From Sulfurisphaera ohwakuensis (GTDB lineage Archaea > Thermoproteota > Thermoprotei_A > Sulfolobales > Sulfolobaceae), in NCBI RefSeq assembly GCF_009729055.1, contig NZ_CP045484.1:1-64000 (forward strand): a DNA stretch of 64,000 nt, given 5' to 3'. Position 1 is the first letter of the stretch. Each line of letters starts with the position of its first letter. Under the pieces are notes generated by a model. The model did no database searches. It was not told the origin of the DNA and saw nothing but the letters and a program-made list of their open reading frames with translations. Both the position numbers and the translations under genes were made by a program. This document shows positions 23,971 to 40,165 of the stretch, one piece after another.

Positions 23971-24098
23971 AGTTTATTCGATTTTTCTAACGCATAAAGA
24001 AAGCGTGGGATCCCATATATGCGCTATTCCTCCCTTCAATCCAATTTTTCAAAATTCAATGAGAAGAAAGCTTAATAGTTAGGAGGATAAGATTAAAT

Positions 24099-24181: not shown

Positions 24182-24247
24182 TTCTATTTGTGAAAAAAAC
24201 ACATTTAAAAACTTTTCTGTTTTTAATTTTGCTCGATTAATATCTCT

Positions 24248-24583
24248 TTAGAAATAATATGGATAAGTAATATAATATGCAATTAATAGGAGTATGAAAC
24301 CGACAAAGATTGCTAAACCATTTACTGCGGGGTTATCATATCTGAAGTGGGCTAATGCGAACCTCCTCCATTTCCCATTTTTCTTCACATAAACCCCGGC
24401 TTCAGTAAACATATCCAAGAACATATGTGTGGGACCGACAATAATACCGGAAACCAATACTTCCACTAAAGCATAATAACCGTATATATAGTGTATTAGG
24501 AAGATTAAGGGAACTGTAGGTAATAATCCCCATACTACACTCCTCGGATAAGTGTGGGTTAAAGGAGTCCTAACCGGTACATA
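24248..24583 (-). pseudogene. DUF1286-type membrane protein, 5' truncated
   Basis: The frame reads WGYVPVRTPLTHTYPRSVV at its start, then LLPTVPLIFLIHYIYGYY, SGIIVGPTHMFLDMFTEAG and a final hydrophobic helix. This is the C-terminal two thirds of a DUF1286/YdjM-like membrane hydrolase family protein (the motif PLTHT is usual). The N-terminal third is absent: the sequence runs directly into the 3' end of the ParB-like frame, whose last codons overlap here. An internal ATG at 24466 could still express a short version. Confidence 0.6.
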
Positions 24584-25095
24584 ACCCCAGTTTCCTTATT
24601 ATATCTAGCCTAGTATACCCGTCTATCAGAACGTAATTTCTGTCAGTTATTAATGGGAATATTTGTGACTTCTCTCTAAGAGATTTTTCTAAATCTTCTC
24701 TGGAGTTGTTAGAAGGAACCAGAGTCTTAAACTCCTCATCTTCCTTTAATCTTTCAATAGGTACTACTTCTTCAATATAGGATAACGTAGAACTCATTGC
24801 GTTATCACCAAACTCTTTCAATTTAATTTCTACGAATTCTTTACCTTTCTCGGAAAGTTTTACATAAGTTACGGTTTTCGTTAATTTTCCTCTTTTTCTC
24901 CTCTCTTTGCTCAACATCTATTAATTGATATATCTGCAGCTGTGGTATCTTCTGAGATATAGTGCTTCTTGGAATTCTAGTACTTTCGGATATCTCATCT
25001 ATGTTATGAAAAGCTGGGTTTTTGTATAAAAAAATCAGTATTTCTCCCTCTGGGCTGAACAAGAGGTATCTCTTTTGTTTGAGCATATTTATCAT
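24570..25095 (-). pseudogene. Winged-helix plus ParB-like protein, frameshifted
   Basis: Two overlapping frames make one protein. 24841-25095 gives a winged-helix (IDEISESTRIPRSTISQKIPQ). 24570-24917 continues with GKLTKTVTYVKLSEKGKEF, then a ParB/sulfiredoxin-like motif LIDGYTRLDIIRKLG near the end. The frames meet in a run of five A (GAGAAAAAGAGG, ~24895-24906), so a one-base slip is likely. The C-terminal part of the ParB domain is missing where DUF1286 sequence begins. It is divergent from the 25194 gene and shares its operators. Confidence 0.6.
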
Positions 25096-25096
25096 G

Positions 25097-25193
25097 TGTT
25101 ATGTTCCAAATAACAAATATATAAATTTATTTGGTAAATGTTATGTAACATGATAAAAGCCGTTATTATGTTACTGGTTAGATTACACATAAC
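25097..25193. promoter_or_regulatory. Divergent promoter with TTATGT/ACATAA operators
   Basis: TGTTATGTT (25096-25104), ATGTTATGTAACAT (25138-25151, near-palindromic), TTATGTTAC (25166-25174) and ACATAACAT (25186-25194) lie between two divergent winged-helix genes. The repeated TTATGT half-site implies a shared regulator. Confidence 0.55.
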
Positions 25194-25487
25194 ATGGAAG
25201 ATATAGTAAGACTTAACGAAATCGACCAAGATGTCTTATTAGCTTTGTTAAATAAGGATAAGTTAGGAATAAGAGAGCTAGAAGAGGAAATAAAAAAGGT
25301 TTCAAAGCAGAGATCCCCTAACGCTATAAGTAAGAGTGTAGATAAGCTCCTTAAAATAGGATTGGTAAACGAGGAGAAGGAGGAAAAACCGCCAAGAGGA
25401 AAGAGATTAATTTACTTAACTGATAAGGGTAAGGAGGTAGCACGACACTTAAAATCTATTTATGATCTTATCGGGAAGAGTGAGTAA
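25194..25487 (+). CDS. Winged-helix transcriptional regulator
   Basis: 97 residues: LLALLNKDKLGIRELEEEI, SPNAISKSVDKLLKIGLV (recognition helix) and a wing with PPRGKRLIYLTDKGKEVA, a MarR/PadR-like arrangement. The start codon itself lies in the ACATAACAT operator half-site, suggesting autoregulation. First gene of a possible two-gene unit with 25529-25699. Confidence 0.75.
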   Translation: MEDIVRLNEIDQDVLLALLNKDKLGIRELEEEIKKVSKQRSPNAISKSVDKLLKIGLVNEEKEEKPPRGKRLIYLTDKGKEVARHLKSIYDLIGKSE

Positions 25488-25528
25488 ATATTATTATACG
25501 GAGAAAGTAAATATATAAGTGAGTAAAG

Positions 25529-25699
25529 ATGACGGATGAGATTTCTGAGATTAGGAATGACTTGTATAAGAGGGCTGAGTTTGTTTTAAAAACCTATAAG
25601 AAATATCTAGACGCCCTAGCGGAATTCGATAGATCTGGAGTACTTAAGGTTGATGGAAAAATACTTTATGTAACTAAACGTGAGGTTAATAAGGGTTAG
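25529..25699 (+). CDS. Small charged protein (56 residues)
   Basis: From ATG at 25529: TDEISEIRNDLYKRAEFVLK, then a helix to FDRSGVLKVDGKILYVTKRE. No ATG alternative. It starts 41 bases after the regulator stop and its last 14 bases overlap the 3' end of the convergent Fic gene. Could be an accessory of either; no family recognised. Confidence 0.5.
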   Translation: MTDEISEIRNDLYKRAEFVLKTYKKYLDALAEFDRSGVLKVDGKILYVTKREVNKG

Positions 25700-26123
25700 C
25701 TAATCTTTTCATAATTTCTTCTATAATTTTCTGTAAATCAAGTATATCATTTTCTGGTTCTTTAGATATTTTGGCTATTATAGTTATTAGTGAATTCATT
25801 AAGGTTTCTTCAAGTATTATATCCCTTTCGTACAGTTTGGAAAGTATAGTGAGTAATAGGGCTGTGGCAGTTCTCTTATTCCCATCAGCAAAAGGATGCC
25901 CAGTTATAAGATGATGTATCAGTACAGCTAAACTCCTACTTATGTTGTGATTTATTTCAAAATCCAACATTGCGGAATACACAGCTCCTTCAATATTTCC
26001 CTCATTAATTACAATAGAAGTTAAGGAAGGGTCTTCTTCTTTCAAAACTCTTTCGTTTAACCATATTATGAAACTTTTATCAAGCGAAGCGAGGATCAGT
26101 TGAAATTTATTTCCCAATGCCAA
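25686..26123 (-). CDS. Fic/Doc family protein
   Basis: 145 residues with the Fic active-site motif HPFADGNKRTA at residues ~77-87 (catalytic His first) and a helical bundle. Fic enzymes transfer AMP or phosphate to target proteins; Doc types act as toxins on mobile elements. No inhibitory S/TxxxE/D-type helix is obvious in the N-terminus and no antitoxin lies on the same strand. The length fits a minimal Doc-like protein. Confidence 0.8.
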   Translation of the reverse strand: MALGNKFQLILASLDKSFIIWLNERVLKEEDPSLTSIVINEGNIEGAVYSAMLDFEINHNISRSLAVLIHHLITGHPFADGNKRTATALLLTILSKLYERDIILEETLMNSLITIIAKISKEPENDILDLQKIIEEIMKRLANPY

Positions 26124-26173
26124 TTACCTCAATTTGTTTATGGTTTTTATAAACTGAGTAACTTAAAGTTTTA

Positions 26174-26188
26174 TTATGTGTCACATAA
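26174..26188. promoter_or_regulatory. Palindromic operator TTATGTGTCACATAA
   Basis: A perfect 15-bp palindrome with the same TTATGT half-site as at 25.1 kb. It overlaps the TATA-like TTTTATTATG (26168-26178), which lies ~26 bases before ATG 26200, so binding would block transcription of the SWIM gene. Confidence 0.55.
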
Positions 26189-26199
26189 CAAGAAACAAA

Positions 26200-26519
26200 A
26201 TGATTTCCACACAAATCCCCTCAAAATCCATGATAAAGAGAATAGATGTTTTTTACGTATTATCTGAAGGCATAATCGTTTCAGCAGATATTCAAAGCAA
26301 GAGCAGGTTAAACTTGGTACACTATTCAAGGATTGTTATAGATCCCATAAGTTTAAAGATAATTAAGGAGAGTTGCAGTTGTGAGGCTAGAAGCTTCGGA
26401 AAGAAATAATGCTGGCACCTAAAGGTGCTGGAACAATTGATAGCTTCTGAGGAGATTAAGGAGAAGGTAGAGAAGGCTAGGAATGAATTGATGCAGATAG
26501 AGGCAAAGAATGAACGTAA
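26200..26519 (+). pseudogene. SWIM zinc-finger protein, interrupted
   Basis: One frame, broken by a TAA at 26407-26409, encodes VFYVLSEGIIVSADIQSKS, then CSCEARSFGKK [stop] CWHL: a CxCx(n)CxH SWIM zinc finger with the stop exactly inside the finger. The helical tail continues (EQLIASEEIKEKVEKA) to ~26500, where it merges with the truncated integrase. SWIM proteins are common on Sulfolobales plasmids and viruses. Unless the stop is read through, it is inactive. Confidence 0.6.
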
Positions 26520-27578
26520 GTCATATAATCTGAACTCTTTCCCCGCTTTTCTCATTCCCTCTTTTATTTCTTCTCTTAAATCGGCTAACTGGAACGGAAA
26601 GAACTTCATCTTCCACTTCTCAACGTCTCCACCTATCTGTTGCACCGCTTTTTCGTATTTTGAAATGAAGTCCTCTCTGAAAGGCAAATAATTCTTCTTT
26701 ATCCATTCAATAGTCTCTCCATGCAGAAATGAAATGTAAGCCCTCTTTGTCGCACTATTTTTCATTAATTTAACTATTCCGTTATCCAAGTCTACTTGCT
26801 CGACGCTTAATGAATAAACTTCCCCTACTCTCAACCCCGTTTCAGCCAGAATGAGGAAGAATGTTTTTGCACCTAAATGGTCTATTGAGTTAAATATTTT
26901 CTTTAGCAGTTCTAAGGAAAGTGGAGGAGGGGAATATTTGTAATCAACTTTAGGTACCTTAAAGGAATTGCAAAGTATTTGCCTCAGGATTGGGTTTCTG
27001 CTCATTACTACTTCTTTTATGAATAACTTGAGCGTGTTTGCCCTGTGTCTCGCTACATTAGGCCCTTCTTCTACTGCTAATTCCAATATATACTCTTTCA
27101 GCGAATCGGGTGAAAGTGAAAATCCTAAATCTCTCATTGCATATTTTATATGCCTCAGCCTTTCTTCTCTGGTCGCTTTACTTTGTTGCTCTAATATCTT
27201 CTCAAATAGTTTCAGGTCTTCTTCAGTGACTACGTAACTGTTTGTATTCTGCCTAACATAGTCTCCTAAGAACCTATTTAACATCATAAAAAGCAAAGAA
27301 CGGAACTGTGGATCCTCCATTGCAGTGTTTATTACTTTTAGTAGGTCGTTTATATCCGCTTTCTCTATCTTCTTGCCGTAAATTATTCTAGCTATTTCAT
27401 CTGGTGCTAGAAACTGTAACAGCTTTTCAACAACCTCTTTCGGTATTTCCCTTAAGCCCTTCTTATACCTCCAGCCAGTAGCTTTTGAAATTCCTAATTG
27501 TTCATACGTCAGTATGGGAATCTCTTTTTTCGCGTAAAAAATGAGATGAACGAAATACAAAAAAAGACTAGTAAACAC
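26500..27578 (-). pseudogene. Tyrosine integrase lacking its catalytic C-terminus
   Basis: Homologous along ~340 residues to the intact integrase at 40427-41692: helix-turn-helix start (TYEQLGISKATGWRYKKGL), SYVVTEEDLKLFE, box I Arg in ETGLRVGEVYSL, and YDLRSFFAS of box II. Just after this the sequence changes into the antisense of the SWIM gene, so the nucleophile Tyr region (NHYF in the intact copy) is missing. It is therefore inactive. Start codon uncertain; the first residues before AKKEIPILT are doubtful. Confidence 0.75.
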
Positions 27579-27593
27579 TAATTTTTTGAGAAA

Positions 27594-27640
27594 AGTTTGT
27601 ATATTAGAGGGCGGACCTTAACATATGAAGGGGAGTAAAG
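27594..27640 (+). repeat. Promoter-type repeat shared with 36664-36708
   Basis: AAAAGTTTGTATATTAGAGGG here and AAAAGTTTGTATAAGTGAGGG at 36664, both followed by GACCT, then CATATGAA. Each places a TATA-like element ~28 bases before an ATG, so these are related promoter-plus-start regions of an element gene (ribbon-helix-helix type in the right-hand copy). Here the coding part is cut short by a transposon. Confidence 0.45.
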
Positions 27641-27678
27641 ACAAAGGGACGAAGTCCCTATTGTAGGACTTCGTCCGG

Positions 27679-28440
27679 TTAGCTCTCAAACTAATCTACA
27701 CCTTTCTAACTAATATACTTTTCCCCGAAGAACTCCTCAAAGCCTTACTCAAGGCAAGAGGAACTTACTTGAGTAGGCTTGGGAATGAGGGGAGAAGGGC
27801 ATTAAAGCTCTTGAACAATATTAATGTTGATGATGTTAGAAGGGCATTAAGGGAGATGGGTAAGGGGGTTTTGAGGGAAACTAGGGATAGGAGGGTTGCT
27901 ATTGACCTCCATTCAGAACCACAGTATCACAAGGATAAGAGTTTGTTGAGTAGGATTAAGCCTAATAGGGGGACCTCTTGGGGTCTCGTTCAAATTGCAA
28001 TTTTCCTCTTGATTAAGGGTATTTTCCTTGATGTTTTGCCTATAACTGTTAAGAATGTTGCTGAGGATTTTAAGATGCAAGTTGTTTTGGAGGAGTTGGA
28101 CAAGTTTGATCTTAGGCTTGTTTATGCTGATAGGGAGTTTGCTGTTAATGAGGTTATCAAGTTTCTCTTGGATTTTGTTATTGCTGCTAGGTATCAAATG
28201 TATAGGAAGTATGTGGATAAGTTGGAGGATGTTGATATTACTTATTGTGGTGTTAGGTATACTGGTTTTCTTTGTGTTAAGCATGTTAGTGGTGCTTATC
28301 TTGTTATTTTAAGGAAGAAGGAGGGTGGGGAGGATGGTATGATTATAGCTTTTCTTGTTAGGGGCGTTCAGTAATAAATCTTTCGGTCATACTTCAAGAA
28401 TAGTGTTAGCTAAGATTGCCACGTGGGCCATCTAGACCCA
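27679..28440 (+). pseudogene. DDE transposase (IS4-superfamily type), N-terminal part
   Basis: The frame opens upstream of an internal TTG at 27769 and reads FPEELLKALLKARGTYLSRL, then RRVAIDLHSEPQYHKDK (first Asp), LRLVYADREFAVNEVIKFLL (second Asp) and ending IIAFLVRGVQ with TAA at 28372-28374. The C-terminal part with the catalytic Glu is at 31072-31360, displaced by a 2.6-kb nest of two IS110 elements. A hairpin CCACGTGGG/CCCACGTGG (28420-28446) lies after the frame end. Confidence 0.7.
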
Positions 28441-28469
28441 CGTGGCTATTAAGGGGGAGGGACCTTTAA

Positions 28470-29434
28470 TCACTTAGGCTCATAAGGCTTATTATTATAC
28501 CAAACACTCCATACAATCCTAGCCAACTTCCTTGCCAAAGCAGTATATAACTTCTTACCTCGTAACCTATCCTTATGAGACTCATAAAACTTCAACAACG
28601 TTGGGTTCCTAGAATAATTCATCTTTGCAAGAAAGTAGAATAAACTACGCAAATACTTATTACCCCTCTTAGAAATCCCCCTACTTATCACACCCCTACC
28701 ACTCCTCTCCACAATTGGGTCTAAACCACAATAAGCAACAAAAGATTCTGGCTTAGGAAAGCGCCTAATATCACCAACAACACCAATAATTATACCGGCT
28801 GCAAGCCTCCCAATTCCCGGGATAGTCAACAAAACGTGATCCTCGGGAACTTGCTCCTCAATCATCCTCCTAACTTCTTTCAATTTCTCTTGCGTTTCCA
28901 AGAGTGTTTTTGCCAATACTCTTATTTCTTCGAGTACTATTGGTGTGTATTCTAGGTTGTAGAGCTCTTCTTGTGTAAAATCCCCATTTGCGAGTTTTTC
29001 TAACCTTTCCTTGTTTATCTTGTCGTTGTCACTTACTAGGAATAGTGTCCTCTTTAGCCTGTTCTCGTATTTTACTTCTATATCCTTGAGGAAGAGGTAG
29101 AGTGTTACTAACTCCTTCAAGGGGTTGTATTCATATTCTTTGGCCTTGTCAGCCATGTTTTCTAATTTTTCAGCGTCATAAAAATCTGTTTTCTTTCCTC
29201 TAAACTCCTTCTCCCTCGATAGTATGTTGGGGCTTACTTGTAGTACTTTTATTCCTCTCTCTTTGAAGTATTGGCAAGGCCTTATTGCGTATACTCCAGT
29301 GGGCTCTAAAACTATTGCGCAAGGTTTCATCTTGAGGATTTCTTCATAACCCTTCTTATTATTCTCGTATTTTCTTTCCCTCCCCCTACTTGTAATTAGA
29401 TAATCTTTTGATATATCTATTCCTATTACCCCTA
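28470..29434 (-). pseudogene. IS110-family transposase (5' end damaged)
   Basis: DEDD domain: VGVIGIDISKDYLI, LEPTGVYAI, KKTDFYDAEKLEN. Tnp20 domain: IPGIGRLAAGIIIGVVGDI, YCGLDPIVERSGRGV and KRGNKYLRSLFYFLA. The coding frame extends upstream of the first ATG (29330) through the essential GIDISK motif, but no ATG, GTG or TTG is available in that frame; a GTG at ~29434 would work only with a one-base shift in the AAAAGGG run. Insertion of the other element at 29449 also separated it from its upstream region. Probably inactive. Confidence 0.8.
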
Positions 29435-29540
29435 CCCTTTTATCACACCTCCCACGGGGGATTCTCGTAAATCAAGTGAACGAATAAAACCAAGTATTAC
29501 GAGAGTAAAATAAATAAACAAGTAAGGAGAAAAACAACAT

Positions 29541-29667
29541 AAGCCCAGTCACACCAAGGGGATAAAACCCCCTCATATAGGCTGGCTGTGAAGCCCCTAG
29601 AACGATCTAACAAGAAGGGATAAAACCCCGTGTGGGAGGATGTAACAAATCACCCTAGGGGCTGAAC
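29541..29667 (+). ncRNA. Candidate bridge RNA with matching target and donor guides
   Basis: Stem AGCCCAG/CTGGCT (29542-29548, 29582-29587) encloses TCACACC (29549-29555), the hairpin GGGGATAAAACCCC, and ATATAGG (29575-29581). TCACACC equals the left target plus core C, and ATATAGG is the reverse complement of CCTATAT across the core and right target. The second stem AGCCCCTAG/CTAGGGGCT encloses GTGGGAGG (29632-29639), the reverse complement of CCTCCCAC at the element start. This is the guide logic of IS110 bridge RNAs. RNA ends are not known. Confidence 0.7.
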
Positions 29668-29739
29668 AGTTAACATTATGTAAAGAAAAACGGTATTATG
29701 AACACAAAAAATATCTTGTAAAACGAGAAATATTCAAAC

Positions 29740-30895
29740 ATGACAAATGATTTTATAAGCAAAGCCTTTGCAATAGACATATCACAAAGCAAACTAACAG
29801 CAGCAAAGGGAGAACTAGTCCTAAAACATGAAAAACCATCAGTAACAATCAAAGAAATAAAAGAATTCCCATACAACGACAAGGGAATAGAAGAGTTAAT
29901 AAAATTCCTCGGAGAATACAAAAGCGGGATAGTAGAGGCGACAGGAGTATACTTCTACTACCTACACGAGAGACTAACAGAAAAAGGATACAAGGTAACA
30001 GTAGTAAACCCGGCACAATTAACAGAAATACTAGGGAAAAAGACAGATAAACTAGACACACAAAGACTACTAGTAGCATACATGACCGGGGTAATAAAAG
30101 GATCACACATACCAACAGGAGAAATAAAAGAACTAAGAGAGTTAACAAGACACAGGGAAAACCTAGTAAACAAAATAACACAAGTAAAAAACGAGATAAG
30201 AAAAACCTTGGAAATCGCCGGTTATAAAATACAACCATTCGACAAGAGAGGAAGACAACTACTGGAAAAACTAGCAAAAGGAGATAAGCAAGGAAGAGAA
30301 GGAAGAGTTAAAGGAGAAACTAGGAAGAAACTTGAATGACGCAGAAAGGCTAACACTAAAACAACTAGTCGAGTTATTGAAAAGCTTGGAGAACATGGTT
30401 AAGGAAGTGGAGAACATGATAATGTCCAAGATACCAAAACCGGTAATAGAGTTATCCAAGATACCCGGAATTGGTTTAATCACAGCAGCAATAATTTATG
30501 CTGAATTCGGTGATATATCACGTTTTCCAAACTCAAAGGCAGCTAGGGCTTACGCAGGCTTAGCACCTAGAACCAAGCAGAGTGGTAATAGTGAGTTCCA
30601 CTCTGGTATGATTAGGGGTAACAAGCACTTACGCAAGTGTTTCTACTTAGCTGCTAGGAGTGCCAGAGGGCTTGAACCATTTAACGAGTTTTACGGGAGA
30701 CTCATTGCTAGGGGCAAGAGTGTAATACAAGCTACATGTGCACTTGCGGGGAAGCTTGCTTGCATAGCATATCACGTTTTAAAGGACGGTGTTTACAAGG
30801 GCATAGTCAAGAAGCGTCTTAGGATACCCAAGGGTGGGGAAGTTGATGTCAAGGATTTCAACGTGGGAGACGCACTTGACTCGTTATCCCCTTAG
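29740..30895 (+). pseudogene. IS110-family transposase in two frames (frameshift near 30280)
   Basis: Frame one (29740-30339): FAIDISQSKLTAAKG, VEATGVYFYYLHERL and KKTDKLDTQRLLVAYMTG form the DEDD domain. Frame two continues from ~30278 (KEISKEEKEELKEKLGRN) through SKIPGIGLITAAIIYAEFGD, YAGLAPRTKQSGNSEFHSG (Ser region) and RGNKHLRKCFYLAA. Continuity is restored by skipping one base in GCAAAAGGAG (30274-30283). Either a recent inactivating insertion or a programmed +1 shift at the A-run; a TTG at 30332 can start only the second part. Confidence 0.8.
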
Positions 30896-30925
30896 GTTTG
30901 TTAGAGGCGGTAGCATGTGGTGCCT

Positions 30926-31069
30926 ATATTCGTGGATTTTTCCACAATGTTCAGTCCGACGGTAGGGGTTTGTCACGCCCCAACCCGAAGACTTTGCTTC
31001 AGTTGATGTTTCGACCATGTTTCCCCAGCCGAGGAGAGTATTACTCTCCCCGACTAATAAAACCTATAT
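30926..31069 (-). ncRNA. Displaced non-coding end (candidate bridge RNA region) of IS110 element 2
   Basis: GC-rich 144 bases. It contains the stem GGAGAGT/ACTCTCC (31033-31039, 31043-31049) with a GTAATAC loop on the minus strand, followed by CTGGGG, the same arrangement as in the end of the 10909-12028 element. Separated from its transposase by the inserted element. Confidence 0.45.
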
Positions 31070-31071
31070 AG

Positions 31072-31360
31072 GGTTGATGTTAGGACTGCTGTTGTTTTGG
31101 CTGAGGGGGAGGTGGGGTGTTGAGAATGCTTTTCGTTCGCTGGAGGAGTTTAGGGTTAGGACTTGTGATGTTGGGAAGGAGTTGGTTCTTATCCTCCTTT
31201 GCTATTTTCTTTTGAATGTTTTGGTTCGTTCTTGGAGGAGGTGAGGTTGTGGGAGTTTTCTCAAGCTATTGTTGATTTTCTAGTCCTCAAGGAGATGAGG
31301 GGAGTTGTTGCACAAGGTTTACCTCAAGTTGGGGAGTTGTTTTTCGTGAACTTCAGCTAA
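31072..31360 (+). pseudogene. DDE transposase (IS4-superfamily type), C-terminal part
   Basis: Reads GLLLFWLRGRWGVENAFRS (the catalytic Glu box: RxRWGVEN), LEEFRVRTCDVGKELVLI and LLNVLVRSWRR to a TGA at 31244, then in another frame EFSQAIVDFLVLKEMRG to the natural-looking end VGELFFVNFS at 31360. It complements the N-terminal part at 27679-28440. At least one frameshift besides the interruption, so the gene is dead. Confidence 0.65.
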
Positions 31361-31510
31361 CTCTATGTACTCCTTTTTAATCACGTGAAATTAATTCTAT
31401 ATTTCCTGTTTTTCTAATAAAAATATATTTAATTATACTCGATATCATAAAATATATGTGGTTTTATTTGAATGATACTGGTTTTATTCAATTTTGATTA
31501 ATGTTATTAT

Positions 31511-31951
31511 TTATCTCAGAAAAAAGAGATTCCCATACTGACGTAGTAAAGGATAACATTTTGAACTAGATATTTTTACATAGTTAAACTTAGGTCTAAA
31601 TATATTACAATGCACGGTATCTAGTATCTTACTAGTACTAGGATATATCCTCATGTTCTTAAGATCCTTAACATCTGGGTATATTATAAAAATTCCAAGA
31701 TCTTTTGATCTCCTTATCAATTTTATATATTCCTTTGAATTAAATATATCAATATTGATATTAGGCGAAACTATAACTTTTTTGTCATTTGTTACTTTCG
31801 AAAAATTTCTAATCAATTCCTTAATCTTATTAAAATTCATATTTAGAAATAATATTAATTTATTGTTTATATTTATTATATTATTATCAGTTGTACTGTT
31901 TTTAACTTTATTTAGTATATAATCTAAAAAAATTCTTTGCATTCTGTCCAA
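31511..31951 (-). CDS. Unknown protein, 146 residues, next to the small peptide gene
   Basis: Begins at TTG 31951 or ATG 31942, 5-14 bases after the stop of the 43-residue peptide gene, so the two are probably co-transcribed from the mirror promoter. Very Asn/Ile/Lys-rich, in keeping with the AT-rich cluster. Strand/helix alternation (LILFLNM, KVIVSPNIN, LGIFIIYPD) suggests an alpha/beta fold, possibly a degenerate ATPase-like domain without a P-loop. Two cysteines (VHCNIF, SKCYPL) lie near the C-terminus. No family recognised. Confidence 0.55.
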   Translation of the reverse strand: MDRMQRIFLDYILNKVKNSTTDNNIININNKLILFLNMNFNKIKELIRNFSKVTNDKKVIVSPNINIDIFNSKEYIKLIRRSKDLGIFIIYPDVKDLKNMRIYPSTSKILDTVHCNIFRPKFNYVKISSSKCYPLLRQYGNLFFLR

Positions 31952-31956
31952 CCCTG

Positions 31957-32088
31957 TTAAGTGTAAATAGGTATCACTGTTTTACTTTCTCCTGACATTA
32001 CTATTATATATTTCATTATAATTTCTTCGTCATTATTTATTATGGATTCAACTATTTGTTCTAGTTCTATTTCGAATCCCACTTCCAT
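31957..32088 (-). CDS. 43-residue peptide, candidate substrate of the radical SAM enzyme
   Basis: From ATG at 32088: EVGFEIELEQIVESIINN (acidic, leader-like), then DEEIIMKYIIVMS and the C-terminal GESKTVIPIYT. Its TATA box is the left end of the perfect palindrome (32113-32122), ~30 bases upstream. The size, acidic N-terminus and position opposite a radical SAM gene fit a ribosomally made, modified peptide precursor, but there is no Cys and no conserved core motif I can name. It might instead be a small regulator. Confidence 0.5.
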   Translation of the reverse strand: MEVGFEIELEQIVESIINNDEEIIMKYIIVMSGESKTVIPIYT

Positions 32089-32112
32089 CACCAGTATATT
32101 TATTCTGTTATG

Positions 32113-32172
32113 TTTTTAATAAACGTTAGTTTATAGCTAAAATTTTAGCTATAAACTAACGTTTATTAAAAA
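32113..32172. promoter_or_regulatory. Perfect 60-bp palindrome containing two divergent promoters
   Basis: Every base from 32113 to 32142 pairs with its mirror from 32143 to 32172 with no loop; symmetry ends at 32112/32173. The outer ends read TTTATTAAAA toward each gene, a TATA-like element centred ~26 bases before ATG 32193 and ~30 bases before ATG 32088. The inner part (TTTATAGCTAAAATTTTAGC) would serve as operator. Both sides must therefore be expressed symmetrically. Confidence 0.85.
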
Positions 32173-32192
32173 TCAGATTAGAAAGTCCTATT

Positions 32193-33863
32193 ATGAATAT
32201 AGCTTTAGTTAGGATACCTAAGGACTTTTGGCCTTTCATTGCGGATATAAATGATTATTACATATCTCAATTGACTAGTTATATTATGCAAAAATTCGAA
32301 AATTACTTATTAAAAGTAGATATATATGATTATATGCTTAACCCAGAGTTAAATATAGAGAAATTTATTAATAATACTTATGATATAATTTTGGTAATAA
32401 AACATTATCCGCAACCTATTTCTCTAACTAGAAGATTCTCTCTTAATATCAAATTACACAATAAAGAAACTTTAATAGGATTATGGGGAATGGGAATTAG
32501 TGCTAACTATGAAGAACCATTAGTAGATAAATATGCAGATTTTATTGTACTTGGGGATGAAGCCTCAATATCTGATTTGATATATAATATATATTATTAT
32601 AATGATTTTACTAGAACTAAAGGAATAGTATACAGAAATAATAATAATATAGTTATAAATTATCCAATATTAAAAATACAAAATTTAGATCAATTACCAT
32701 TACCCTATCTATATCATATAATGGAAGATACTTATAAATATAGTAAGTATAGTATTTTAGACGCAGCAGAAATAATGACATCTAGAGGTTGCTATGCAAA
32801 CTGCTCATTTTGTCATGTTTCTTATACAAAATCTATTGATAATTCATATAAATGGTATCAGATGTCACCTAAGAAAGTAGTTGACATAATCTATGAATTT
32901 AATAAGAGATTTGGAATAAAAATCTTTAGAGTAAAAGATCTAGATTTCTTCGGGCCAAATCCAAAAAGAGTCGTAGATATAGCAAATGGAATAATCGAGA
33001 GTAACCTCAATGTAACGATTTATGCTTATACTAGAGCAGAAAATATAATTAAAATAAAAGATAAACTTAAATTATTAAATAAAGCAGGTATTAAATATAT
33101 ATTATTAGGAATAGAAACTTTTTTAGATGATAAACTTAAATTATTAAATAAAGGTAATAATAGTAAAATTAATATAGAAAGTATAAATGAACTTATAAGT
33201 AATAATTTTTGTGTAGATATTAGTTTAATTCCATATTCTGCATTTGATACTTTAGAAGATATTAAGACTGATTTACTAACATTAAAAAATTTATTATTGT
33301 CGTTACCTAAATTAAAGAGAGCACAAATAAAGAGTTTACCTATGAGCTTAGGAAATGTTTTTGAATATTATGGAAATTTTAATAAATTAAAAATATATAA
33401 TTATAATAAAATTTTAACTATCGATAATGAAATTTTGCAGAGCTATCTAGCTATTTTAAGGCTCGTAAGCGATCCAAATTATGGTCCAATACCTTGGTTT
33501 AAAGATGAAAAGGTCCCTGTAATAGGATTATTAGCATATATATTATCATCAATTCTTGTAGCTAAATCTAATGAAGTATATTCATATTTGAAAAGGTGCA
33601 AAAATAGGGATGAGATTAAGGATATATTAAATTGGGAACTTCAAATTAATGAGTTTATAATAGATTTACTTCTTAAAATTTTAGATTTTACCAATAAAAT
33701 GGAAAAAATTGATATATATAGTTTTAAGCAACTAATTAAAATTGTATTAGTTCAATTACAACTTTTTAATAGTAAATTACCTGAAAACTTACAAAAAATT
33801 AAATTGCCTTCTCATTTAAAATGGTTACAAATTATACTCGATTTAGATATTAGAGATCATTAA
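32193..33863 (+). CDS. B12-binding-type radical SAM enzyme
   Basis: 556 residues. N-terminal B12-binding-like domain (~1-190; ALVRIPKDFWP, IVLGDEASISDLI, then the usual linker LDQLPLPYLYHI). Radical SAM cluster SRGCYANCSFCH with Cys200, Cys204 and Cys207 binding the 4Fe-4S cluster, then IFRVKDLDFFGP and KYILLGIETF of the TIM barrel. The last ~150 residues are helical and unlike common members. Such enzymes methylate or rearrange unactivated carbons, often on peptides, lipids or antibiotics. Extremely AT-rich codons (Ile, Asn, Tyr) point to acquisition. Followed by a winged-helix gene and an ABC exporter. Confidence 0.85.
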   Translation: MNIALVRIPKDFWPFIADINDYYISQLTSYIMQKFENYLLKVDIYDYMLNPELNIEKFINNTYDIILVIKHYPQPISLTRRFSLNIKLHNKETLIGLWGMGISANYEEPLVDKYADFIVLGDEASISDLIYNIYYYNDFTRTKGIVYRNNNNIVINYPILKIQNLDQLPLPYLYHIMEDTYKYSKYSILDAAEIMTSRGCYANCSFCHVSYTKSIDNSYKWYQMSPKKVVDIIYEFNKRFGIKIFRVKDLDFFGPNPKRVVDIANGIIESNLNVTIYAYTRAENIIKIKDKLKLLNKAGIKYILLGIETFLDDKLKLLNKGNNSKINIESINELISNNFCVDISLIPYSAFDTLEDIKTDLLTLKNLLLSLPKLKRAQIKSLPMSLGNVFEYYGNFNKLKIYNYNKILTIDNEILQSYLAILRLVSDPNYGPIPWFKDEKVPVIGLLAYILSSILVAKSNEVYSYLKRCKNRDEIKDILNWELQINEFIIDLLLKILDFTNKMEKIDIYSFKQLIKIVLVQLQLFNSKLPENLQKIKLPSHLKWLQIILDLDIRDH

Positions 33864-33913
33864 AAGAAAAATTTAAAAAAAAAAGCAGGATAATATTTAT
33901 ATGATGATGTATA

Positions 33914-34261
33914 ATGTCACCCAGTGATAATCATAATTTTCAAATAAATAGTAAATGTATTTTTTCTGTGAGGAAAAGCAAAATAAGATTAGAAATCCTA
34001 AAAGTTTTGAGAGAATGCTATCCAAATTCATTATATATAGCGAAAATTGCAAGAAGAACTGGAGTAAATATTACGCAAGTAATTGGAGCTTTAAGAGGGA
34101 TCAATAACAAACAATATAAGCCAGAATATTCTTTATTATCACTAGGGTTAGTTTATGAGAGCATTAGCGGAAATCGCAAATTATATAAAATATCTCCTAA
34201 AGGTATTCTGATTTTATCTTATTTAGAATCACAAAGGTATAATAATGAGAGAAATTATTAA
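33914..34261 (+). CDS. Winged-helix regulator of the radical SAM/ABC cluster
   Basis: 115 residues: VRKSKIRLEILKVLRECYPN, YIAKIARRTGVNITQVIGAL (helix-turn-helix), then a wing and YKISPKGILILSYLES. Archaeal ArsR/MarR-like. A possible own TATA (AATATTTATATG) lies ~20 bases upstream. Its last 17 bases overlap the start of the ABC ATPase gene, so the two are coupled. Best local candidate to bind the 60-bp palindrome. Confidence 0.75.
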   Translation: MSPSDNHNFQINSKCIFSVRKSKIRLEILKVLRECYPNSLYIAKIARRTGVNITQVIGALRGINNKQYKPEYSLLSLGLVYESISGNRKLYKISPKGILILSYLESQRYNNERNY

Positions 34262-35147
34262 TATACAGAATTTAACTAAAGAATATAAGAATGAAGTAAA
34301 GACACTAAAAGGAATAAATCTTAAAATATACGAGAATGAAGTTTTTGTAATAGTAGGCCCTAACGGAGCAGGTAAGACAACCTTACTTTACATCATTTCT
34401 ACTATATTAAAACCTACTGAAGGTAGTGTTTACGTTATGGGCTATGACGTTACAAAGAACCCAGGGAAAATTAGGGAGTTATTAGGCTTTGCTTTCACCG
34501 AGATTACGCTATTTAACACCACTGTATATAAGGCTTTATGGGCTCACGGAAGAATTTATGGTATTCCAAAGAACGAATTAAGGCAGAGGATCTTAAATTG
34601 TTTAAATGAACTTGACATTATAGATAAGTCTGATTCAATAATTTGGGAATTATCCAGTGGGCAGAGGAAAAGAGTCGAAATCTGTAAGGTAATCATCCAG
34701 AGACCTAAAATAGCTATATTCGATGAACCTACAATAACAGTAGATATAGACGGTAAGCATAAAGTATGGAGTCTCATTAAGAACTTGAAGAAGTACGGAA
34801 GCACAGTAATCATTGCAACTAATGATATTTATGAGGCAGAATACTTAGCTGACAGAGTAGCAATACTAAATAAGGGGGAGTTGTTAGCCGTTGGTTCAAT
34901 AGATGAATTGAAAAAACCTTTGGGTAGCGAAGTTCTTGAACTTGAAGTATCAAATCCAAATGTAATAAGCAAGATAAGCCATTTAGGACGAATTATAGTA
35001 TCGGGTAACTATATAAGATTGTATTCTGATAAATTGCAGGATATAATTAAGGAAATTTCAACACTTAATGGAATTATCTCGATTAGGAGGCTCAACGTTA
35101 CTTTAGATGACGTATTTCTAGTGTTAACTGGAGGTGTAAAACAATGA
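34245..35147 (+). CDS. ABC transporter ATP-binding protein
   Basis: 300 residues. Walker A GPNGAGKTT near 40, Q-loop around AFTEITLF, signature LSSGQRKRVEI near 140, Walker B IAIFDEPTITVDI, H-loop region replaced by ATNDIYEAEYLADR (an Asn-Asp in place of the usual His, worth checking). C-terminal ~80 residues form the extension typical of ABC-2 drug/peptide exporters. Overlaps the downstream permease start by 4 bases. Confidence 0.92.
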   Translation: MREIINIQNLTKEYKNEVKTLKGINLKIYENEVFVIVGPNGAGKTTLLYIISTILKPTEGSVYVMGYDVTKNPGKIRELLGFAFTEITLFNTTVYKALWAHGRIYGIPKNELRQRILNCLNELDIIDKSDSIIWELSSGQRKRVEICKVIIQRPKIAIFDEPTITVDIDGKHKVWSLIKNLKKYGSTVIIATNDIYEAEYLADRVAILNKGELLAVGSIDELKKPLGSEVLELEVSNPNVISKISHLGRIIVSGNYIRLYSDKLQDIIKEISTLNGIISIRRLNVTLDDVFLVLTGGVKQ

Positions 35148-35884
35148 GAGTTACTTCTTACATATACCTTATTTTTGCTTATTCAATTTATTTTTTGGGT
35201 TCGAGTACTTTAATATCTTTACTTATGTCCTTCATACAGATAGCCGTAAGTACGTTAACTACAATAGTATTCTTAATAATACTTCTACCTACTTATAAAT
35301 CTTATATATTTGTGGGCGGATCAATAGTCATGCTTCTACTCTCTTTAAAGAACTATCTATCAGATACAATAGGGTGGGATTTGAAAATGAACAAAAATTA
35401 TTTATTATTACTACCCATTAATAGATATTTAACGCCCTTCATAATAATGCTAGGTTTATCCATTTATTTTGTCATATTATACGTTCCGATCTATTTTATT
35501 CTAGCTTATTTCTTGAATTTATTAGTTTTAGCAATATATTTGTTATCAATGTTAGTATTAGTAAATGTAGTGTTAATGTCTACAATACTAGTTACTACAG
35601 TTGCACCTAAACGTTATTGGGAATGGTACTCTGTAATTCCCACAGAGATAATTATTGGTTTGATTTCGTACTTCTCAAATGCGCTAATACCTGCTAAAGG
35701 TAAAATTCTTGATCAAATAATAATTTACAACCCATTTTATTATATTATAGCCCTTATAAGACAAATATTGGGGTTAGAAGAACTTAATCTATTATATTTT
35801 CTCATATCTGCCGTGGTGATCTTAGCTTTAATATCAATAGCCATTATCGTATATGATAAGGCTGAGGGGGGCAGTTTTAGATGA
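35144..35884 (+). CDS. ABC-2-type permease subunit 1
   Basis: 246 residues, six predicted membrane helices, the ABC-2 layout. Starts in the ATGA overlap with the ATPase and ends in an ATGA overlap with the second permease. Together with the ATPase these make a heterodimeric exporter. Substrate presumably the product of the radical SAM enzyme, by context. Confidence 0.8.
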   Translation: MRVTSYIYLIFAYSIYFLGSSTLISLLMSFIQIAVSTLTTIVFLIILLPTYKSYIFVGGSIVMLLLSLKNYLSDTIGWDLKMNKNYLLLLPINRYLTPFIIMLGLSIYFVILYVPIYFILAYFLNLLVLAIYLLSMLVLVNVVLMSTILVTTVAPKRYWEWYSVIPTEIIIGLISYFSNALIPAKGKILDQIIIYNPFYYIIALIRQILGLEELNLLYFLISAVVILALISIAIIVYDKAEGGSFR

Positions 35885-36513
35885 TATTGTCGCGATATTT
35901 TTATATAATCCAGGCTAAAATTGTTGGAGATCTAAGATCTAAAGAGATACTATGGATAATATTACCCAACATTTTCATGGAATTATTTTTCCTATTTTTC
36001 GTAGGAGGAATTATAGGTAGTGCATACCAGTTTTATGTAGCTATTGGTACTACAGTCAACAATTACGTATCTATGTTGCTAAGTATATCGTATAATATAT
36101 TCTTGGACTACTTCTCTGACTCAAAACGTAATAGTTATGAGTTGTTACTTTCAAAAAGTAACATGGAATATGCGTTAGTGTTTAATATGCTTCCATCATA
36201 TTTAATATCAACTATTATTTCTATACCCTCTCTAATTTATATCGTATATTATGACGCATTGAGAATTGTGTACATGATGTTCATTAACCTACTCATTTAC
36301 TTGGTTTTCACTCCTTTCCTTGTGAGATTAGGGTTTCTCATAGACGATATAAAGAAAGTAATTATATTCAGAGTATTTAACCTTTACCTCACCAGATTAA
36401 ATATAGCAATAATCCCTTCCGGCAAGTTACTCACAATTATTCCCCTTACCCTCGCAGTTCCAATAATATACAATCCAGTTTCCATTTTAATACAATTATT
36501 GACTTATTTATAG
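35881..36513 (+). CDS. ABC-2-type permease subunit 2
   Basis: 210 residues with about five or six helices (IFMELFFLFFVGGIIGSAY, LLIYLVFTPFLVRLGF and others). Last gene of the radical SAM/ABC operon; an intergenic stretch and transposons follow. Confidence 0.78.
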   Translation: MILSRYFYIIQAKIVGDLRSKEILWIILPNIFMELFFLFFVGGIIGSAYQFYVAIGTTVNNYVSMLLSISYNIFLDYFSDSKRNSYELLLSKSNMEYALVFNMLPSYLISTIISIPSLIYIVYYDALRIVYMMFINLLIYLVFTPFLVRLGFLIDDIKKVIIFRVFNLYLTRLNIAIIPSGKLLTIIPLTLAVPIIYNPVSILIQLLTYL

Positions 36514-36663
36514 ATTAATAAATAATTAAGAAAACAATTGTTTAGAATGATAAGTAATACTTAACACAAATGCATTAAATTAACATCAGTATAGGAATTT
36601 CTTTTTACAAGTAAAAAATAAAAAATAAGTAAAATACATAGAAAATCTGAAGATTGAATTTTT

Positions 36664-36745
36664 GAACAAAAGTTTGTATAAGTGAGGGCAGACCTATTCA
36701 TATGAAATAGATTAACAGAACGAGACGGGGGAAGACCAATAGGGG
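36664..36745 (+). pseudogene. 5' fragment of an element gene (ribbon-helix-helix type), cut by an IS
   Basis: The promoter repeat AAAAGTTTGTATAAGTGAGGG is followed by ATG at 36703, then a TAG after two codons and a basic stretch (INRTRRGKTNRG). The rest of a ribbon-helix-helix gene continues at 39066 after the IS1-like element. Frame continuity is not perfect. Confidence 0.35.
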
Positions 36746-36773
36746 GTGTTCTCAAACAGTCATGAAATTCGAT

Positions 36774-37924
36774 TAGCATTTTACGTCTTTCTCCTTCTCT
36801 TAAAAAGTTTCTTAATCCCGCCCAAAGATTGATAAATACTTTTTATCACCCTTGCTATCCTCTTGGCACCCAAATACAAACCAAGAGAGTACTTAAACAA
36901 GAGTACCAAGAGTAAGGAGAGAGCCTTAAGGGTTATAAACCCCTTATTCCTAACCCAGGTGAGGAAAGAACCTTTCTCCAATCCCAAGGCTTTAAGCTCC
37001 CTAATCAAAACCTCAATATCCCAACGATTCTCCCACGCAGTTATGAGATCCTCAGCAGTATCATTAACGTTGGTAGAGAAGAAGTACCTCCTTCCAAAAC
37101 CCTTATAATCATCTATTACAAGTAATTTTATGGGAATACCTAAATACTCAACTAGGTATTCCCCCTCGGGGAACTCGCCAACTGGCACAAGCCTACCACC
37201 CTCGGTGACCCGTGAGTTGGCCTTGAGTTCCCCGACGGTATCATCCAAGAGAGTTTTAGAATTAACATACCAAGAATCAAAAACCTTGCATACAACATTA
37301 AACTCCTCCTCGAGAATTGGCAATGTTTCCAAGTATTCTTGTATCTTTGTCTTGAACTCAACCTCCTCTCCCCTCTCCCTTAATATCTCAACAACCTTTT
37401 GTGGTATGTAGGGTATTATTGTTACTATGTAGGTTTCGTTTGTTTTCAAGTCTTTTATTGCTATTATGAGTAGTTGTATTGTTGGTTCGTATCTTTTGTG
37501 TTCTCTGCAGTAAAAGACTTGTGCTCCGTTTCTTGATACTGGTAGTGCTCTTGCGTGTTGTTTGTGATCATGTGTGTCGTCTATTATTAGTTGTACTGGG
37601 TGGTCTTGTACTATCTCTTTTACTATTTTGGTCAGGTTTGTGTTTGCTAGTTTGTTAAGGTTTTTTAGTACTGTCTCGTAGTCCATGCCCGTTGCTTGGG
37701 CTATTTCTGTTGCTGTTCCACCCATTACTCCTCCAAGTACTAGTTTTGCTAGTGTGTCTTTTCTCAAGCTAGTCAAGGCGGTGAATATTTGTTGGAGTGC
37801 TTCTTGTAGTGCATTGTAATACGCTTGGATTAGTGAGTTTGTATTCATCCGATATTTTGTTTGGTTAATTTTTAAAAAGTTTTCAAGGTGCCCTTAAACT
37901 GCAAGGATTTTCCTATAAATGCTA
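36774..37924 (-). mobile_element. ISC1217-like insertion sequence, copy B (complete)
   Basis: 1151 bp with ends TAGCATTTTA...TATAAATGCTA (short inverted repeats) and a 6-bp target duplication TTCGAT at 36768-36773 and 37925-37930. Inserted into the left end of the IS1-like element. Confidence 0.85.
36781..37848 (-). CDS. DDE transposase, ISC1217-like (copy B)
   Basis: 355 residues, differing by only a few residues from copy A at 17821-18888 (for example KRRRKT in place of KRRKKT at the end, SLIQAYY in place of SLLQAYY at the start). Same catalytic segments: IIDDTHDHK, KVFDSWYVNSK, RWDIEVLIRELKALG. Intact. Confidence 0.88.
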   Translation of the reverse strand: MNTNSLIQAYYNALQEALQQIFTALTSLRKDTLAKLVLGGVMGGTATEIAQATGMDYETVLKNLNKLANTNLTKIVKEIVQDHPVQLIIDDTHDHKQHARALPVSRNGAQVFYCREHKRYEPTIQLLIIAIKDLKTNETYIVTIIPYIPQKVVEILRERGEEVEFKTKIQEYLETLPILEEEFNVVCKVFDSWYVNSKTLLDDTVGELKANSRVTEGGRLVPVGEFPEGEYLVEYLGIPIKLLVIDDYKGFGRRYFFSTNVNDTAEDLITAWENRWDIEVLIRELKALGLEKGSFLTWVRNKGFITLKALSLLLVLLFKYSLGLYLGAKRIARVIKSIYQSLGGIKKLFKRRRKT

Positions 37925-38036
37925 TTCGATAAGTATTTGTAAAATTATTAGAGTAACGTAAGAATTGTTACCATAATGTTATTTGCTAAAGAGGTCTAGA
38001 AGTGTAAGGGCAAACATTATTCTAGAAAACATTTAT

Positions 38037-38094
38037 GTGCAAGGGTTACGAGGCTTATGTGGAGGTCACGAGATGGACCTCGTAACCCTTGCAC
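38037..38094 (+). promoter_or_regulatory. Hairpin around the transposase start site
   Basis: GTGCAAGGGTTACGAGG (38037-38053) pairs perfectly with CCTCGTAACCCTTGCAC (38078-38094). The 24-base loop holds GGAGGT (38061-38066) and the ATG at 38073. A 17-bp stem presenting the ribosome-binding site and start codon could limit or time transposase translation. Confidence 0.6.
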
Positions 38095-39023
38095 AATTAA
38101 TACTTCTGCTTTTAAGGAATTTAAACCTTAAGCCGAGAAAATACAGGCTAGAAGACCTTGCCTACGCAATAGCAGCGTATCTACTTGGAGTACAAGTCAC
38201 CAGGCTAGGGATACCACCATCAACACTATATTATTACACTAAAAAACTAGGGGTAAAGAGGAGGAGGGAAGAAAGACCACAATGCGCATCATGTAAATCA
38301 AACAAAGTAATAAAGAACGGCTCATTTAAAGGAAAAACAAAATACAAGTGCAAAACTTGCGGAAAAACATTTTACCAAGCATATAACCACAAGATGAGTA
38401 AAGAACAAAAGGAGAGGATATTGAAAGAGTACTTGAATAGGATGAGCATGAGAGCAATAGCAAAGGTCGAAGGGAAACCGCTAACCACAATATACAGCTT
38501 TATAAGGAGAAAAGGGATAGAAGCCTATGTTCACCTAATAGTACTACGAGAACAACTAAAGGCCTTCACGGCAAAATTCACGGTAATTGATGAGAGTTGG
38601 AGTTACTTGAGGGCTAGGCGTGGCCCAAAGAGGATAGACTTGTGGATATGGAACGCTTTGGTAGATGGTGTACCACTTTCCATTACCGGTAATAGGGACC
38701 ATAGGACTTTCAACTACCTCTTGAATTCCCTACCTAAGAGTGAAGTGTATTATACCGATGGTTACCCAGTTTACCAAGTACTTAACAACCATATTGCGGG
38801 CAAGGAGTACACTTACACAGTGGAGAGCCACAATTCCTACTGTAGGGCCCACTTAGCTAGGTTAGCAAGGGATACGAGGGCTGTAAGTAGGAGTGAGGCC
38901 ATGGTTAACTATAGTCTTGCTTTGTTGTACGTCATGTATCCCGTAGTTTATTCAAGGGAAAAGACCCCCTTGAACGAGGCTTACTTGAAGGGGATAGAGA
39001 ATATTAGAAACAAGCTGATATAA
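38073..39023 (+). CDS. IS1-family-like transposase (InsA/InsB-type fusion)
   Basis: 316 residues from ATG 38073, which has a GGAGGT ribosome-binding site 7 bases upstream; a longer TTG start at 37983 is in frame but would run through the hairpin. Zinc ribbon CASCKSNKVIKNGSF...YKCKTCGKTF (~70-100), a helix-turn-helix (SMRAIAKVEGKPLTTIYSFI), then the DDE-type catalytic part (FTVIDESWSYL, YYTDGYPVYQ, ESHNSYCRAHLARLAR) as in IS1 InsB. Confidence 0.82.
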   Translation: MDLVTLAQLILLLLRNLNLKPRKYRLEDLAYAIAAYLLGVQVTRLGIPPSTLYYYTKKLGVKRRREERPQCASCKSNKVIKNGSFKGKTKYKCKTCGKTFYQAYNHKMSKEQKERILKEYLNRMSMRAIAKVEGKPLTTIYSFIRRKGIEAYVHLIVLREQLKAFTAKFTVIDESWSYLRARRGPKRIDLWIWNALVDGVPLSITGNRDHRTFNYLLNSLPKSEVYYTDGYPVYQVLNNHIAGKEYTYTVESHNSYCRAHLARLARDTRAVSRSEAMVNYSLALLYVMYPVVYSREKTPLNEAYLKGIENIRNKLI

Positions 39024-39065
39024 TATTACAAATATTTTTCGAATTTCATGACTGTTTGAGAACAC

Positions 39066-39227
39066 TCCCAGTTAGATCTGTATTGCATAAATAATCGTAA
39101 AGAACGTAGTGTAGTAATTAGGGAGGCTATAATATTCTACTTAAATTGCAGAAAGGGTAGGGTTTACAGACTAAATTCCATTGAAGAGAATTATCAGAAT
39201 AGGGAAATTAGGGTGCAGGAGCTATGA
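39066..39227 (+). pseudogene. 3' fragment of a ribbon-helix-helix (CopG-like) gene
   Basis: Immediately after the IS1-like element an open frame reads QLDLYCINNRKERSVVIREA, IIFYLNCRKGRVYRLNS and ends EIRVQEL at TGA 39225-39227. The DLYCINN...ERSVVIREAI pattern is the two-helix part of a CopG/Arc-type fold. The stop overlaps the next ATG (ATGA), so this was the first gene of the operon that follows. Confidence 0.6.
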
Positions 39228-39472
39228 TAGACATTTCAGAGTTGAAAAGGAAAGTTTACGAGTACAATTCTAAGATAAGAGGTTACGGCGTATATTTGAA
39301 GCCTTACCATATTGTATACAAGAACGGCAAAAAGTACATCTACATAGGGAGGTACTGGTATAAGTTAGAAAGAAAGAACGGTAAGCAAAAATGGATATAC
39401 TTAGGAAAAGAAAAACCCTTGCCCAACTTACCAGATCCTCCAGAATTACCTGAGGTAAGTAAAAATGATTAA
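39224..39472 (+). CDS. Small basic plasmid-type protein (82 residues)
   Basis: Very rich in Lys and Tyr (KPYHIVYKNGKKYIYIGRYW, RKNGKQKWIYLGKEK) with repeated YIYIG/WIYLG strands, ending in a Pro-rich tail (LPNLPDPPELPEV). Resembles small DNA-binding-like proteins on Sulfolobales plasmids and viruses. Overlaps both neighbours by a few bases, part of a five-gene operon. Confidence 0.6.
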   Translation: MIDISELKRKVYEYNSKIRGYGVYLKPYHIVYKNGKKYIYIGRYWYKLERKNGKQKWIYLGKEKPLPNLPDPPELPEVSKND

Positions 39473-39698
39473 TGTCCCAGATTGGGTAATTGAAGTGTTG
39501 GAGGAAACTGATTGTGAGTACTGTGGGGCAGAAATAGTTTACGCTAGAACAAAGAAAGGAATAGGAGTGTTTGACGCCAGAACGTGGAAACCTCACCGCC
39601 TAACCTGTCCTTACTCACCACAGTGGTCTAAAAAAGTAGGCAGAAGGGAAATGAAGCAAACTCATTTAGAAGATTTTGGGATTCTGAGGGATGAATAA
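39465..39698 (+). CDS. Small zinc-binding-like protein (77 residues)
   Basis: CEYCGAEIVYARTKKGIGVF, WKPHRLTCPYSPQWSK: a CxxC and HxxxxC pair that could form one zinc site. The tail ends MKQTHLEDFGILRDE. Overlaps the preceding gene by 8 bases and the following one by a single base (stop/start TAATG). Function unknown. Confidence 0.6.
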   Translation: MINVPDWVIEVLEETDCEYCGAEIVYARTKKGIGVFDARTWKPHRLTCPYSPQWSKKVGRREMKQTHLEDFGILRDE

Positions 39699-39889
39699 TG
39701 AAGTTCTATTTTGCTGATGATGGGAATAAGGTATACATACTTGATAGGAAAGGCAACGGTATTATTGTAGATAAGGTAGACTTCGAAAAGGTTAAAACGA
39801 AGATAAAAAACTGTCTTAACATAAACGATGCGGACGCTATAGTACTGACAATGACTTACTTTATACTGAATCGAGGTGGGAAGGAATGA
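39698..39889 (+). CDS. Small protein (63 residues) in the element operon
   Basis: KFYFADDGNKVYILDRKGNG, then a helical second half. Starts in an overlap with the preceding stop and ends in an ATGA overlap with the next gene. No family recognised; conserved coupling argues that it is real. Confidence 0.55.
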   Translation: MKFYFADDGNKVYILDRKGNGIIVDKVDFEKVKTKIKNCLNINDADAIVLTMTYFILNRGGKE

Positions 39890-40161
39890 CAGTTGATCAA
39901 ATTATCGAGGAAAACAGAGAGCTGCAGCTACAGTATACTAAAGCATTAAACACTATTGCTACTTTAGAAAGAAAAGTAGTAAAACTTCAAAAAGAGAATG
40001 TAATGTTGAAAGAACAAAACAAAAAGCTTCAGAAGCAAAATAATATTCTAATGAGAGCTATAGAGATTGCTATTCAAATCAGAGACTATAACGCTCAAAC
40101 TAGGCATTTGAAAAAAGTTCTGGAGAAAATAAGGGAAGAAACTGGGGAGTTTAAGGGGTGA
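39886..40161 (+). CDS. Coiled-coil protein (91 residues)
   Basis: Heptad pattern over residues ~20-65 (LERKVVKLQKENVMLKEQNK, LQKQNNILMRAIEIAI) predicts a long coiled coil. Overlaps the preceding gene by 4 bases. Similar small coiled-coil proteins occur in Sulfolobales plasmids and fuselloviruses; role unknown. Confidence 0.6.
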   Translation: MTVDQIIEENRELQLQYTKALNTIATLERKVVKLQKENVMLKEQNKKLQKQNNILMRAIEIAIQIRDYNAQTRHLKKVLEKIREETGEFKG

Positions 40162-40165
40162 GAAG

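Follow-up and report, generated by a model that had tools for sequence, protein, structure and literature searches.

A perfect 60-bp loopless palindrome between divergent coding stretches in an integrated plasmid remnant of Sulfurisphaera ohwakuensis

The stretch of Sulfurisphaera ohwakuensis DNA analysed here (64,000 nucleotides, referred to below as the window) carries a perfect loopless palindrome of 60 bp at 32113–32172, placed between two coding stretches that run away from each other. The arms, 32113–32142 and 32143–32172, are 30 nt each, 100% complementary and 0 nt apart. This confirms what a sequence-only reading of the window had reported, namely thirty bases matching on each side with no gap, and the feature is striking in size. 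The same reading took the palindrome for a mirror-image double promoter. That interpretation is partly supported, and we find no evidence for its extension to a double promoter whose two sides are forced by one regulator to fire equally. The explanation that we tentatively favour, with somewhat less than even confidence, is a small inverted duplication of a promoter segment, recent or homogenised, made by a replication template switch in the shared upstream region of divergent plasmid-cargo genes. The palindrome and the coding features around it are as follows.

32113–32172, no strand: perfect loopless palindrome (2 x 30), from arm comparison, Markov simulations and an arm-length survey
31957–32088, minus strand: 43-codon open reading frame with its start codon beside the palindrome (ATG 32088; alternative GTG 32091)
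31511–31951, minus strand: 146-codon continuation in another frame, a broken gene, its last ~11 codons inside an insertion sequence
27505–31545, plus strand: insertion sequence that truncates the left gene; its ends are inverted and IS110-type elements have interrupted it
32193–33863, plus strand: intact radical-SAM gene, BchE / RiPP C-methyltransferase-like, 556 aa, Pfam PF04055 at 3e-12
33914–34261, plus strand: EarA-like winged-helix protein with its own TATA-like site, PF07381 at 9e-20, upstream position weight matrix (PWM) score 7.27
34245–36513, plus strand: DrrA-like ABC ATPase and two membrane proteins, from profile and sequence matches

Palindromes that are both long and perfect are rare and unstable, and this one is a strong outlier; chance does not explain arms of 30 bases. 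The runner-up among loopless palindromes of the window reaches 10 bases per arm, and the longest loopless arms in 50 Markov-1 simulations of the window were 7–11. We surveyed 821,818 bases of Sulfolobaceae DNA, made up of the window, twenty 20-kb stretches of its own genome and 18 stretches of related genomes or elements (one of these 18 also from its own genome). Loopless arms of 8, 9 and 10 bases occurred 22, 8 and 4 times; there was one each at 11, 12, 13 and 14, and then only the 30 of the palindrome described here. The integrase discussed below matches 14 plasmid records; in eight of these, all related conjugative plasmids of Sulfolobales with 243,641 bases in total, the longest loopless arm is 12. 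The symmetry ends abruptly at either edge, and inspection of the flanks by eye for traces of a longer symmetry gave nothing convincing. The arms are single-copy in their own genome, which is one contig of 2,803,915 bases, and no match to the palindrome longer than ~25 bp was found among 197 genomes of the order, which together argue against a mobile repeat and against a conserved operator. Exact 20–22-mers of the arm were absent from the viral contigs, and an exact 21-mer was absent from the genome_contigs collection. Nor did a search of open-licence papers bring up a perfect palindrome of such length at an archaeal divergent promoter.

With DNA parameters, the predicted folding energy of a single strand of the palindrome is −25.5 kcal/mol, and its z-score relative to shuffled sequences is −11. 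We considered a cruciform function and rejected it: the hairpin is stable on paper, yet the predicted mRNAs begin outside the palindrome, and strong negative supercoiling is not expected in hyperthermophiles that have reverse gyrase. Sub-sites phased at 10.5 bp within the palindrome were likewise abandoned once the exact coordinates were known.

The surroundings of the palindrome are those of a mobile element.

22884–41847, no strand: integrated element between repeated tRNA-Phe att sites (22884–22967 and 41765–41847)

The tRNA-Phe gene lies at 41805–41896, and its 3' half plus flank (41765–41847) recur at 22884–22967 (84 nt, 88%). The integrase that adjoins the tRNA (40427–41776) is 85% identical to the integrases of pSOG1, pSOG2 and pARN4. 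Sequence matches are to pSOG1 and pARN4 at the right end of the element and to pNOB8 at the left, and a ZapB-like gene and a plasmid gene module match conjugative plasmids. With an integrase at a tRNA, repeated att sites and a plasmid module, the element has, as judged from these matches, the make-up of a remnant of an integrated Sulfolobales conjugative plasmid. It mixes pNOB8-like remnants on the left with pSOG1/pARN4-like remnants on the right and has two integrases, the second of which, in the pNOB8-like part, is broken at ~27505. A Fic/DOC-family protein is encoded within it at 25686–26123. The palindrome sits between the plasmid remnants in a cargo patch of 23% GC; 300-base windows across ~31400–34250 have a GC content of 0.19–0.30, as against 0.30–0.39 in other 2-kb windows. 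A blastn comparison of 31546–36500 with the eight plasmids gave no match.

To the right of the palindrome, the radical-SAM gene starts at ATG 32193 and is of the B12 type. In NCBIfam, its protein resembles BchE (1e-25) and rSAM_ocin_1 (9e-18), both under the cut-offs. Matches within the E limits occur in 8 of the 197 order genomes and 12 of 398 phylum genomes, its own genome being counted in each; the foreign relatives are 25–36% identical, and those inspected resemble generic B12-type radical-SAM proteins. Plasmids, phages, viral contigs and genome contigs held no relatives, and by these comparisons the protein is an orphan. When it was used to look for an orthologous or homologous locus with the palindrome, none appeared among the 197 order and 398 phylum genomes, the plasmids, the phages or the viral and genome contigs. 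EarA-like proteins (PF07381) are rare in this archaeal family, with matches in 2 of its 31 genomes, the window's own included; the other match is a degraded copy in genome G175. It is also in G175 that the ABC ATPase and the first membrane protein have close counterparts (86% and 80% identical). There, the syntenic ABC operon retains the degraded EarA-like gene and is without a nearby radical-SAM gene and without a long palindrome. Taken together, the orphan radical-SAM enzyme, EarA-like regulator and DrrA-like ABC exporter of 32193–36513 look like a small gene cluster, part of the plasmid cargo, for a natural product or for peptide modification.

To the left, the minus strand has a stop-free run of 145 codons, longer than the maximum of 113 in 20,000 simulations, and the AT skew flips sign across the palindrome. 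On these signs the left stretch was clearly a coding sequence formerly. It is now broken twice, once by a frame switch between the two open reading frames, which may be a sequencing error, and once where its 3' end is replaced by the insertion sequence leftwards from 31545. The insertion sequence whose end reaches 31545 is present in several copies in the genome (95–99% identical), and no target duplication was seen at the outer ends of 27505–31545. Pfam, NCBIfam and PHROGs gave no match to the left gene beyond chance, and the structure model of its product is poor (pLDDT 50). The two divergent leaderless genes of the sequence-only reading therefore stand in part: the coding stretches are divergent and the right gene is intact, but the left gene has lost the frame of its start codon and been cut short by the insertion sequence.

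We compared the tips of the palindrome with upstream regions of the same genome.

32157–32169, plus strand: BRE/TATA-like site TAACGTTTATTAA for the radical-SAM gene, PWM score 3.78, beginning at −36 from the ATG
32116–32128, minus strand: mirror BRE/TATA-like site for the left stretch, beginning at −40 from ATG 32088 and −37 from GTG 32091

The BRE/TATA PWM was trained on 179 upstream regions from a 400 kb sample of the window's own genome, where the modal starts are at −34/−35, then −37, from the start codon. The distance from start codon to palindrome edge is 21 bp on the right and 22 bp (GTG) or 25 bp (ATG) on the left, and the TATA-like register is near the leaderless distance on both sides. 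The tip score of 3.78 bits falls at the 42nd percentile of the real upstreams (n = 179) and is attained by 25% of shuffled ones; in random cassette-like DNA, ~7% has such a TATA-like site in the four-position register. The TATA-like tips are thus present, mirrored and at roughly the leaderless distance as had been proposed, but their score is average and is also reached by shuffled sequence, which leaves the double promoter plausible and not demonstrated. Coding sequence diverges from either side, with the radical-SAM reading frame on the plus strand and the 145-codon stop-free run of the now broken left gene on the minus strand. The palindrome is probably a divergent promoter region with a candidate core promoter in each tip. 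As a two-tipped divergent promoter, it is plausible, short of proof.

The palindrome also contains a pair of internal dyads, one in each arm.

32119–32134, no strand: dyad ATAAAC-GTTA-GTTTAT in the left arm, a possible half-operator, from sequence
32151–32166, no strand: mirror copy of the dyad ATAAAC-GTTA-GTTTAT in the right arm, its centre 32 bp from that of the left one, from sequence

The window and the 400 kb host sample each contain two occurrences of the core pattern TAAAC-N4-GTTTA. Dyads of the form TAAAC-N(2-8)-GTTTA have an expected frequency in the cassette of 0.001 per 30 bp, a post hoc figure, and 21% of shuffled arms hold some dyad with half-sites of at least 6. With up to 2 mismatches allowed, the dyad pair has no second site in its own genome, and so any operator here would be single-site; a regulon with several such operators was rejected on this ground. 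Among 214 order genomes searched at the same stringency, only 2 others had a match, and in 1 of these the reversed control pattern matched as well. The protein at 33914–34261 had been proposed for footprinting on the palindrome. It is EarA-like (Pfam E = 9e-20), and EarA boxes are TACATA or A(C/G)(C/G)TACA(T/C) (PMC10665913). None lies in the palindrome, and within 31541–34300 TACATA occurs only at 31577 and 32259. With the boxes absent and a poor single-sequence structure model (pLDDT 47), we rejected the protein as the obvious regulator. The related claim, that the symmetry forces equal firing of both promoters under one regulator, finds no support, given a dead left gene, an absent EarA box and a dyad pair that has no second copy in the genome. 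Selection cannot now be acting to keep two genes firing equally when one of them, the left, is dead.

Returning to the inverted duplication that we favour, we suppose that two divergent genes of the plasmid cargo share the palindrome as their upstream region. A core promoter (BRE/TATA) would sit in each tip, with transcription starting at the start codon or a few bases before it, and TBP–TFB could load in either orientation. One 30 bp promoter segment would have been copied in inverted orientation when replication switched template at AAAATTTT, a short palindrome in the centre. The perfection of the arms would come from the event being recent, or from template switching that repeatedly corrects one arm from the other. 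Template switching is described as making or repairing perfect stems in one step (PMC8794818). Further points in favour are the exceptional, perfect arms, the sharp edges of the symmetry, the lack of another copy of the arms, the TATA-like register at both tips and the signs that the left side once coded. Perfect symmetry is more likely to result from recent copying than from a need to switch on both genes equally. Against the inverted copy stand the average tip score and the rare dyad in each arm; moreover, no ancestral or sister sequence with one arm, or with altered arms, was found, and, with the left gene broken, no present use is seen for a second promoter. The palindrome, its uniqueness, the diverging coding stretches, the register of the TATA-like sites and the damage to the left gene are thus observed, while promoter activity, the copying and any role as an operator are inferred.

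The main rival, which we consider unlikely but still to be taken seriously, is a dedicated symmetric operator. A local regulator, as two dimers or as one tetramer, would sit on the two ATAAAC-N4-GTTTAT dyads, 32 bp or about three helical turns apart, looping or occluding both TATA boxes, and selection on both arms would maintain the symmetry. The rarity of the dyad within each arm (0.001 per 30 bp, post hoc) is easier to reconcile with a selected operator than with the copying of an arbitrary segment, and a regulator-like gene lies 1.7 kb downstream. There are also precedents among operators in Sulfolobus: the inverted repeats of FadRSa between divergent genes (PMC6449355) and the 32-bp inverted repeat of YtrASa (PMC6746942). 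However, 30 exact bases per arm are seldom needed by an operator, the FadRSa and YtrASa sites being semi-palindromic in those same accounts (PMC6449355, PMC6746942). The scarcity of other dyad-pair sites, in the genome and in the order, the missing EarA boxes and a dead left gene, which leaves no pair now in need of co-regulation, also tell against it.

Rather improbable is a self-symmetric promoter, in which mirrored TBP/TFB sites would serve two genes and the arms would be kept identical by template switching. If it were true, both promoters would evolve in concert, a mutation in one being copied to the other.

A hairpin for replication, transfer or partition of the ancestral conjugative plasmid seems a little less probable again. 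The palindrome does lie in the remnant of a conjugative plasmid, with tRNA-Phe att sites on either side, and the origins of such plasmids are repeat-rich (PMC4390865). There is, in addition, a dyad frequent in these plasmids: TAAAC-N6-GTTTA, mostly in the form TAAACTGGGGAGTTTA, occurs 68 times in the eight conjugative plasmids and once in the 400 kb host sample, and two one-mismatch copies of TAAACTGGGGAGTTTA are found in the window at 23603 and 40138. The TAAAC-N4-GTTTA of the palindrome is similar, but since the spacing differs (4 against 6) the likeness is a lead only. None of the eight plasmids has loopless arms beyond 12, and none matches the cargo around the palindrome by blastn.

It is very unlikely that the arms are terminal inverted repeats of a transposon rejoined after loss of the middle, or a foldback element. 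Many insertion sequences lie nearby, but the arm is single-copy in the genome, which also speaks against a MITE, the 20–22-mer and 21-mer searches of the viral contigs and the genome_contigs collection found no exact copy, and no target duplication flanking the palindrome is visible by eye. An assembly or sequencing artefact is barely credible, for although fold-back chimeras exist in general, such chimeras yield far longer palindromes, 60 bp fits inside ordinary read lengths and the genome is a single contig.

A perfect palindrome across an archaeal divergent promoter offers a compact natural test of mirror-image promoter design, and of whether template switching creates and homogenises promoters. 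The broken left gene and the absence of relatives limit the value of this case.

Among known systems, the bidirectional promoters of Escherichia coli reportedly give divergent transcription from pseudo-symmetrical DNA; they differ in being bacterial and in having pseudo-symmetry where the palindrome here is perfect over 60 bp. The EarA sites of the Methanococcus and Pyrococcus archaellum operons are connected to it through the EarA-like protein encoded 1.7 kb downstream, but the boxes of those sites, TACATA and A(C/G)(C/G)TACA(T/C), are missing from the palindrome (PMC10665913). Quasipalindrome and template-switch mutations share a one-step mutational path to perfect inverted repeats; they are known from other organisms and from RNA genes, and here the event is inferred (PMC8794818). 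Also comparable are the operators of two Sulfolobus acidocaldarius regulators. Those of FadRSa, of the TetR family, are dyad-symmetric sites between divergent genes in the same archaeal family, but with a 16-bp semi-palindromic motif and a known regulator, against a perfect 60 bp here (PMC6449355). That of YtrASa, of the GntR family, likewise places a long inverted repeat, of 32 bp, at a promoter in Sulfolobus, but it is imperfect, has a 14-bp core and spans the transcription start, whereas the palindrome here ends ~20 bp before the predicted starts (PMC6746942).
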